The notes under the pieces: generated by a model
Databases searched by the model: none
The model's input: the letters and a program-made list of their open reading frames with translations, nothing else
What the model was told of the DNA's origin: nothing
Position numbers and translations under genes: made by a program
Shown: piece by piece, positions 46,210 through 48,854 of the stretch
Layout: every line of letters starts with the position of its first letter
Numbering within the stretch: position 1 is the first letter of the stretch
NCBI RefSeq assembly: GCF_001483965.1
Contig: NZ_CP010796.1
Span: 1 to 64,000 of the forward strand
Length of the DNA: 64,000 bases
DNA from: Carnobacterium sp. CP1
GTDB taxonomy: Bacteria; Bacillota; Bacilli; Lactobacillales; Carnobacteriaceae
Direction of reading: 5' to 3'

Positions 46210-48447
46210 TTAGTTTTCTTTAGTATCGTTTTGATGGGTTTGAACGATAGAAGGTTCTGTTTGTCTAGCGTTTACGACTATTTCACCAGCATCATTGACT
46301 GTAGCGACCAAGTCCTTGCTTTCAGGGTGGTCAAGATAGAAGTCAGCAATGCGATCTTCTATTTGTTCTTGAATAACACGGCGCAATGGACGAGCCCCTA
46401 ATTGAGGATCATAACCTAGTTCAGTTAATTTTTCTTTCGCCTGTTGATCTGCTTCAATTGAAATGTTTTGGTCTTTCAACATCTCATTAACATCATGCAG
46501 CATTAGATCCACGATGACAAGCAGGTGCTCCTTCTTTAAAGAATTGAATTCAACGATCGCATCGAAGCGGTTAATGAATTCAGGTTTAAAGAAATCAGTG
46601 AGCTGATTTAAAACGGATTTTTGATTTCCTTTAGAAGCGGCAGCAAAACCGACATTAGCTTCCACAGATCCTGTGCCAGCATTACTCGTCATAATGATAA
46701 TAGTGTCTTTAAAGCTGACTGTGCGTCCTTGTGCATCGGTTAAACGACCATCTTCCAAAATTTGCAAGAACATATGCAAGACATCTGGATGGGCTTTTTC
46801 GATTTCGTCCAATAGTAAAATACTATAAGGATTATGACGAACTTTTTCAGTCAATTGTCCAGCTTCATCATATCCAACATATCCTGGAGGAGAACCGATC
46901 AGCTTAGCAACACTGTGTTTTTCCATATATTCACTCATATCGAATCGGATATAAGCTTCTTTATTTCCAAATAACTCTAGCGCCAATTGTTTGGCTAGCT
47001 CTGTCTTACCAACACCAGTTGGCCCTACGAATAAGAAAGAACCAATTGGGCGATTTTTCTTGTTCAATCCAATACGGCTTCTGCGAATAGCTTTGGAAAT
47101 TTTATCAATTGCTTGATCCTGTCCAATCACATGTTTGCTTAATTCCGTACCTAAGTTTCTTAATTGGGTTTGTTCTTTTTCTTTTAATTCCCCAACTGGG
47201 ATATTGGTTTTCATTTCAATAATATTGACCATATCTTGTTCAGTCACAACCGGGCGTTCCGAATCGGGTTGTTGTTGATCGCGCATTGCCGCAAATTTAG
47301 TTGCTTGGTCACGATAAAAAGCGGCTTTTTCATAATCTTCTTGCTGTAAAGCTAATTGTTTCTGATGTGCAGCTTCAGCAATTTTATCTTCAATCATTTT
47401 TGGATCGATTGCTTGAATCGTCAAGTTTTTCTTAGAACCGGATTCGTCTAGCAAATCAATTGCTTTATCTGGCAAGAAACGATCTTGGATGTAGCGATGT
47501 GATAGCATGACGGCATCTTTAATGGCTTCATCCGTATAAGCGACTTGATGGTAATCTTCATATTTCTTTTGAATTCCTTTTAGAATCGCGACTGTTTCAT
47601 CAACAGTCGGTTCGCTTACCCGGACAGGCTGCATCCGTCTTTCTAAAGCAGCGTCTTTTTCGATTGAACGGTATTCTTTTAATGTTGTTGCACCGACCAT
47701 CTGCAATTCGCCACGCGCTAATGCTGGTTTCAAAATATTTCCGGCATCCATGCTGCCTTCAGCACTACCAGCACCAACTATTTCATGCACTTCATCAATA
47801 AAGAGAATGATTTGCGGATTCTTTTTCAACTCATCGATCAATTGTTGCATCCGCTCTTCAAACTGTCCCCGGATACCGGTTCCTTGAACAAGAGAAGCTA
47901 CATCAAGACGAATAACTTCTTTATCCATTAGTTTTTGAGGAACTTCTGCGTCAACGATTTTTTGAGCTAGTCCTTCAACGACTGCCGTTTTACCAACCCC
48001 AGGTTCGCCAATTAAAACTGGATTATTTTTTGTTCGACGATTTAGAATCTCAATGACTCGTTCGATTTCTTTATCTCGTCCGATAATAGGATCGATAGCT
48101 CCAGTTCTAGCTAAATCTGTTAAATTCGTACCGTATTCGCCTAATAAACCACTTTTTTTATTAGTAGGCGGTTGTCCGTTTCCGGAATTGCCGCCACTTT
48201 GAGTCGGTGGTACACCTTGACCAGTTGGATTTTGCATAGAACGGAAGAAGTTATCCAATCCGCCGAATCCAAAAGGATCTTGAGGTGTAGGACGATTATT
48301 TCTGGAACTTCCACTTTCATTAGCGTTTTTTAGTAGTTGATAACAATTTTGGCAAATATCTAATTGACCTTTTTGGCCATTCATATTTGTATATAAATGA
48401 ATTGTTGCATCTCGTTGATTACAGTTTTGACATAACATAACATGCAC
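46210..48447 (-). CDS. clpE: ATP-dependent Clp protease ATPase subunit ClpE
   Basis: Hsp100 unfoldase that feeds proteins to ClpP, made mainly under heat and protein stress. The N-terminal zinc finger CQNC and CQNC, 22 residues apart, identifies ClpE rather than ClpC. A Gly/Asn/Pro-rich linker follows. First ATPase: [30 protein letters not shown]-like coiled segment ([15 protein letters not shown]) is in the middle. Second ATPase: [28 protein letters not shown]. 745 residues. The start may be 48447 or 48438 (MLCQNC). Upstream lie two CtsR operators. Confidence 0.96.
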
Positions 48448-48523: not shown

Positions 48524-48590
48524 CATGACCTTTCTCTGACCTTCCCTGACCTTATGTTCTTATTATACACTGACCTTGTCTGACTTTCAA
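48524..48590 (-). promoter_or_regulatory. clpE promoter flanked by two CtsR operators
   Basis: On the minus strand TTGAAA (48585-48590), 17 bases, then TATAAT (48562-48567). The spacer holds AGTCAGACAAGGTCAGT (48569-48585), two CtsR heptads 10 bases apart. Downstream of the -10 lie three heptads, GGTCAGG, GGTCAGA and GGTCATG, in 48524-48553, spaced 10 and 11 bases. CtsR, the class III heat-shock repressor, recognises GGTCAAA-type tandem heptads. Here most heptads read GGTCAGN, a small variation. Confidence 0.88.
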
Positions 48591-48662
48591 GTGTAATGCA
48601 CTATCTTTTAGTAAAAAAATGCATTACAATTATAAAGATTAAAAGATGAAAGAAGTGAAGAA

Positions 48663-48854
48663 ATGGAAAGCGGAGAGATGGCAAATGAAGTTGAAAAACT
48701 AATCAATGGAGATTTAAAAGAACTGTTGATAGCAAAAGAAGACTTCATGCAATTCAGAGAAATATGGCTGAACCATGAAAAAAAAGATCAGATTATTGGT
48801 GAAGCAAAGCACAATGGAGAAGTTGTTTTCCGGTATCAAACTTTCGCTGAGTAA
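48663..48854 (+). CDS. Small hypothetical protein, 56-63 residues
   Basis: An acidic, helical protein with VEKLINGDLKELLIAKEDFMQF and KKDQIIGEAKHNGEVVFRYQ. Two starts are possible: ATG 48663 with GAAGTGAAG upstream, or ATG 48681 (MANEVEKL) with GCGGAGAG very close. No family recognised. It lies between the divergent clpE promoter and ptsH and ends about 190 bases before ptsH. Moderate coding support only. Confidence 0.6.
   Translation: MESGEMANEVEKLINGDLKELLIAKEDFMQFREIWLNHEKKDQIIGEAKHNGEVVFRYQTFAE

Follow-up and report, generated by a model that had tools for sequence, protein, structure and literature searches.

The region upstream of clpE in Carnobacterium sp. CP1 carries a dense cluster of GTCA-containing heptads around a putative promoter, and the question is whether these heptads are operators of the heat-shock repressor CtsR. 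An earlier note on this DNA had proposed two such operators, one between the -35 and -10 boxes and one downstream of the -10 box. We analyzed the cluster in a 64-kb stretch of the genome (hereafter, the window), in the complete genome and in related genomes. The results make it highly probable, as far as sequence comparison can tell, that positions 48590–48524 constitute a CtsR-controlled sigma-A promoter of clpE, with CtsR dimers on both heptad pairs, which would be off until heat disables CtsR.

The promoter and five CtsR-type heptads are located on the minus strand at positions 48590–48524, where the earlier note had placed them (Table 1). The minus-strand sequence of the region is ...CACTTGAAAGTCAGACAAGGTCAGTGTATAATAAGAACATAAGGTCAGGGAAGGTCAGAGAAAGGTCATGT..., and the RGTCA words start at positions 48585, 48575, 48551, 48541 and 48530, that is, with gaps of 10, 24, 10 and 11 bp. 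Both operators overlap the core promoter or the start-site region: one pair lies between the -35 and -10 boxes, with the -35 box ending on the first base of heptad 1, and the other begins 10 bp past the -10 box, close to the presumed start site. In both pairs the period is 10 bp (a 3-bp gap) and the (A/G)GTCA core is intact, while positions 6–7 are relaxed from AA. Two CtsR-type operators are present, and the heptad pair reported for the spacer is found there. The three downstream heptads had been described as being in phase; this holds for heptads 3 and 4 (10 bp), while heptad 5 is one base out (11 bp). Similarly, the GTCAGN end ascribed to all heptads is seen in four of the five, heptad 5 ending in TG.

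Table 1. Features of the clpE promoter region and related loci of Carnobacterium sp. CP1. Positions are those of the window unless another sequence is named.
Feature	Position	Strand	Evidence or remark
-35 box TTGAAA, clpE promoter	48585..48590	-	sequence; relatives aligned
Promoter spacer, 17 bp	48584-48568	-	sequence
-10 box TATAAT, clpE promoter	48562..48567	-	sequence; 17-bp spacer
CtsR heptad 1 AGTCAGA, spacer operator	48579..48585	-	sequence; spacer pair in 16/18 own-family genomes
CtsR heptad 2 GGTCAGT, spacer operator	48569..48575	-	position 6 is G in 26/26 two-operator promoters
CtsR heptad 3 GGTCAGG, downstream operator	48545..48551	-	downstream pair in 18/18 own-family genomes
CtsR heptad 4 GGTCAGA, downstream operator	48535..48541	-	sequence; relatives
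Heptad 5 GGTCATG, 11 bp past heptad 4	48524..48530	-	missing there in four same-genus relatives examined
clpE, encoding a Clp ATPase of 745 aa (two AAA modules; McsA-like zinc finger at the N-terminus)	46210..48447	-	profile searches
CtsR-type pair just 5' of ftsH	L012 1501-1515 = own genome C1:1947073-1947087		relaxed-pair search
ctsR mRNA leader with covarying stem	L001 1397-1491 = own genome C1:1969605-1969699; also L202-L222		

The gene downstream of this promoter encodes a protein that we take to be ClpE, a name derived from the zinc finger and the AAA layout. The McsA model matches residues 4–37 of the product (E 3e-8); in NCBIfam no model scored above its own cut-off, the best being ClpB with 800.6 of 1232.1 bits. 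The listed ORF starts with GTG at 48447, while the relatives (MLCQNC) suggest ATG at 48438. A 63-aa ORF (48663–48854, plus strand) is divergent from clpE; it had no match in Pfam or NCBIfam, its sole match in the genome was itself, and a frame resembling it seems, by eye, to be present upstream of clpE in one relative locus (L017). Between this ORF and the promoter, a short distance upstream of the -35 box, lies an inverted repeat with perfectly matching arms of 9 bp, TGTAATGCA...TGCATTACA, and a loop of 19 bases (48592–48628, found by eye). A genome search for the CIRCE element (TTAGCACTC-N9-GAGTGCTAA, at most three mismatches) gave two matches, at 498665 and 2191989, and none at the clpE promoter.

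CtsR itself, whose absence would have spoken against the proposed operators, is encoded by one gene in the genome (PF05848, E 7e-36). A search of NCBIfam at 1e-20 gave no match for CtsR. Residues 5–153 align to the crystallised CtsR 3h0d (phmmer, E 5e-51), and the segment KRGGGGYIRI is kept, including the RGGGGY loop, which PMC12634643 describes as the CtsR thermosensor; thus the DNA-binding and heat-sensing loop is retained. Directly after ctsR comes a clp ATPase gene, taken as clpC from its position, with neither mcsA nor mcsB between them. As the McsB family search matched none of the control genomes, we state the absence of mcsB for this interval only.

The strict GGTCAAA-type consensus, with up to three mismatches in 17 bases, gave two matches in the window against 6.7 expected, that is, no excess; such a search is uninformative because three mismatches in 17 bases arise by chance. 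The relaxed RGTCA core was used in its place. In the whole genome (2.6 Mb) RGTCA-N5-RGTCA has 14 exact matches, compared to 11 for the reversed control, so many of the matches are due to chance and the word alone is weak proof. Six of the 14 matches are located at five promoters, those of clpE (two matches), ctsR-clpC, clpB, clpP and ftsH, the pair at clpB and clpP being on the opposite strand relative to the gene. According to work cited in PMC3842655, ftsH belongs to the CtsR regulon of Lactobacillus plantarum. Comparison with the ctsR-clpC promoter, which the earlier note had proposed, revealed a similar site, TATAAT-GAA-AGTCAGGATTAGTCA, directly after the -10 box and again with GTCAG. Two further spacing rules were considered and rejected. 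The pair pattern with 11-bp spacing has 12 matches genome-wide and 17 for the reversed control, and inspection by eye recognised none before a heat-shock gene apart from clpE; in the ctsR promoter of this genome the third half-site, likewise spaced by 11 bp (AGTCAGGATTAGTCAAGGATTAGTC), is not kept in four same-genus relatives.

Next we compared the clpE promoters of related genomes. ClpE was searched for in 59 genomes including that of Carnobacterium sp. CP1; seven had no full-length match, and the upstream regions of the remaining 52 were examined. Two genomes whose ClpE match lacked the N-terminus (G045 and G038) and three genomes without CtsR were dropped, leaving 47 CtsR-bearing genomes with a zinc-finger ClpE, the genome of Carnobacterium sp. 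CP1 among them. A heptad pair, or more than one, was present within 300 bp in all 47. For five genomes (G000, G003, G007, G001 and G004) the listed start codon is a neighbouring codon in the wrong frame, by which distances to the start are off by a few bases while the operator counts stay the same. The two-operator layout, defined as a pair between the -35 and -10 boxes plus a pair at most 20 bp past the -10 box, was present in 26 of the 47 and incomplete in the other 21. It was found in 16 of 18 genomes of the own family, where the downstream pair occurred in 18/18 and the spacer pair in 16/18, as well as in five of six genomes of family f6 and all five of family f7. Families f2 (0/6), f3 (0/6), f4 (0/1, spacer pair only) and f8 (0/5) did not have it.

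The relatives' search demanded the GTCA core and A, G or T as the first base, so invariance of these positions is by construction. Among the 26 two-operator promoters, the first spacer heptad begins with A in 20 and with T in six; at position 6, the second spacer heptad has G in all 26 and the last paired heptad has A in 23. The gap between the operators is 22–28 bp in 25 of the promoters and 16 bp in one. This variability suggests that two separately bound dimers fit better than one rigid array. The ctsR promoters of the own family have AGTCAG(G/T)ATTAGTCA in 18/18 cases (the listing of one, G008, begins inside the -10 box). Therefore the departure of GGTCAGN from the usual GGTCAAA, pointed out earlier, is real when measured against the Bacillus consensus, but judging from these promoters the GTCAG ending is common in the own family and not aberrant.

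A wider sample of the class was searched with the 29-base element TTGNAWGTCA-N5-RGTCA-N3-TATAMT, which was found in 79 of 398 genomes and 40 of 146 genera, while the reversed pattern was found in none. Thirty of the 80 places with this element were fetched, and all 30 lie upstream of a start resembling that of a zinc-finger ClpE. A further pair follows within 60 bp downstream at 24 of these loci, and at least three downstream heptads are present at 17, in each case (17/17) with offsets of 0, 10 and 16. Of the 30 second spacer heptads at these loci, 18 have A and 12 have G at position 6. The 17 loci with at least three downstream heptads indicate that two plus three heptads is a common form, from which the promoter studied here differs only in the register of the third downstream heptad. 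From 80 loci of named organisms we inspected 21 by eye; both operators were seen in Alkalibacterium thalassium (L050) and Bacillus sp. RO2 (L065), and one in Enterococcus columbae (L046).

The three CtsR-less relatives (family f9; L176, L177 and L184) have no heptad pair (0/3) and have a CIRCE-like repeat at the clpE promoter (3/3). Like the other relatives, they have a repressor-type site near this promoter, but it is a CIRCE-like inverted repeat instead of heptads. Judging from these sequences, HrcA may have taken over the control of clpE from CtsR in these three relatives.

Three other explanations of the heptads have to be weighed. GGTCA words could have accumulated by chance in this AT-rich intergenic region, and single RGTCA words are indeed frequent in the window (plus strand, 86; minus strand, 97). 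Within 67 bp, however, no more than five such words occur on one strand of the window, and the cluster with five is the one at clpE; in 300 first-order Markov simulations of the window the maximum was two words in 162, three in 132 and four in six, and five were never reached. Both RGTCA-N5-RGTCA matches in the window belong to the clpE promoter, while 0.32 are expected and two or more occurred anywhere in five of 100 shuffles. Since the conservation of the layout across families also contradicts it, the probability of a chance origin is negligible. Alternatively, the GTCA repeats might be read by a repressor or activator other than CtsR, as the GTCAG ends differ from the published GTCAAA. Yet the same words precede ctsR, clpB, clpP and ftsH in this genome, the GTCAG ending recurs at the ctsR promoters of all 18 own-family genomes, and the promoters of the three CtsR-less relatives lack heptads, which together make another reader very unlikely.

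The extent of the operators is a more balanced matter. It is about an even bet that the operators consist of heptads 1–2 and 3–4 only, heptad 5 being a chance half-site without a role: its spacing is 11 bp, its TG end is divergent, and none of the four same-genus relatives examined has a heptad here. On the other hand, an extra downstream half-site recurs at 17 of the 30 class-wide loci and in all five genomes of family f7, though in another register (6 bp). With or without heptad 5, regulation by CtsR through two heptad pairs is the reading that we adopt.

Occupancy of the heptads and the register of the dimers are inferred from the arrangement of the sites, as are the degree of repression, induction by heat and whatever heptad 5 contributes. 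A CtsR dimer on the spacer pair (48585–48569) would mask the stretch between the -35 and -10 boxes, and a second dimer on the pair past the -10 box (48551–48535) would cover the expected start-site region; the extra half-site (48530–48524) may add affinity. Most likely, dimers on the two pairs would exclude or block RNA polymerase, and heat would release CtsR and thereby turn clpE on. In Lactococcus lactis, ClpE is reported to have a feedback role in restoring CtsR repression (Varmanen 2003, cited in PMC6305308). Such feedback is possible in Carnobacterium sp. CP1, because its ClpE has a zinc finger.

The arrangement closely resembles known systems. In Bacillus subtilis, where clpE is a class III heat-shock gene, it is described as fully repressed via five CtsR sites in the promoter region, with very tight repression and strong heat induction (PMC12634643, PMC2628427); five sites likewise precede the zinc-finger ClpE gene analyzed here, the comparison being one of published descriptions. 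Bacillus subtilis clpE is reported to have two sigma-A promoters (PMC12634643, which cites Derre 1999), whereas one was recognised in Carnobacterium sp. CP1, and the heptads of the latter have GTCAG instead of GTCAAA ends. The clpE promoter of Bacillus sp. RO2, like that of Carnobacterium sp. CP1, has one heptad pair in the spacer and another downstream, and a Listeria monocytogenes sequence matches window positions 48534–48619 at 76%. Family f7, presumably Listeria-like, has both operators in 5/5 genomes, as here, but differs in that its downstream pair has GTCAAA and is followed by a third heptad at a distance of 6 bp. The same 6-bp distance separates the second and third downstream heptads in the class-wide trios, compared to 11 bp in Carnobacterium sp. 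CP1. In family f2, which includes Enterococcus columbae (identical upstream sequence), at least one CtsR pair is found near the clpE promoter in 6/6 genomes and the spacer pair in 0/6; the numbers are the same for family f3, presumably streptococcus-like, where the pair is on the opposite strand.

The double operator of clpE is thus conserved and ordinary, of the kind known from B. subtilis, and shows that a promoter design established for Bacillus also exists in another family. Several families retain an operator in the spacer as well as one downstream of the -10 box, others have a single operator, and in the CtsR-less genomes that were examined a CIRCE-like repeat takes the place of the heptads. 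This makes clpE a clean case for studying how double operators are gained and lost. The current understanding of CtsR is unchanged by these results.

In the course of the comparison we observed an unusual leader of the ctsR mRNA. In 18 leaders from families f1 and f6 the Shine-Dalgarno sequence is located 72–90 bases upstream of the start codon, and the intervening sequence forms a stem that brings both together; in the stemless relatives that were read, a set without the six f2 genomes, the Shine-Dalgarno sequence is close to the start codon of ctsR. An 11-bp stem taken from the fold of the own genome was assessed in the 18 aligned leaders, a 19th (G035), whose fold has no stem, being left out. 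In this alignment 96.4% of the stem cells pair, and changes on both sides were found in five of the 11 pairs (12 cells), while slid versions of the stem pair in 32–62%. In 500 shuffles the covariation score was never reached, the number of pairs changed on both sides was reached once, and the number of further pair types 50 times. RNAalifold unaided recovered eight of the 11 pairs, three of them changed on both sides.

In computed folds the eight core pairs keep a predicted occupancy of at least 0.72 up to 60 C, which speaks against a simple RNA thermometer; with no predicted melting, a leader acting as a switch would need control by a protein or by some other signal. A further layer of RNA control in the own family, in which the leader hairpin sets the amount of CtsR that fills the five-heptad clamp at clpE, is conceivable but improbable. 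Searches of Rfam at seven of the loci gave no match at the ctsR leader, and among the matches listed in a literature search no paper dealt with this stem by title or abstract. A covariance model of the leader matched 21 genomes out of 295 in the order; 18 of the 21 had been used to build the model and three were new. In all 21 cases the leader precedes ctsR, its placement being determined by offset in 14, by coordinate comparison in five and by sequence in two, and the CtsR N-terminus is present at 21/21 loci.
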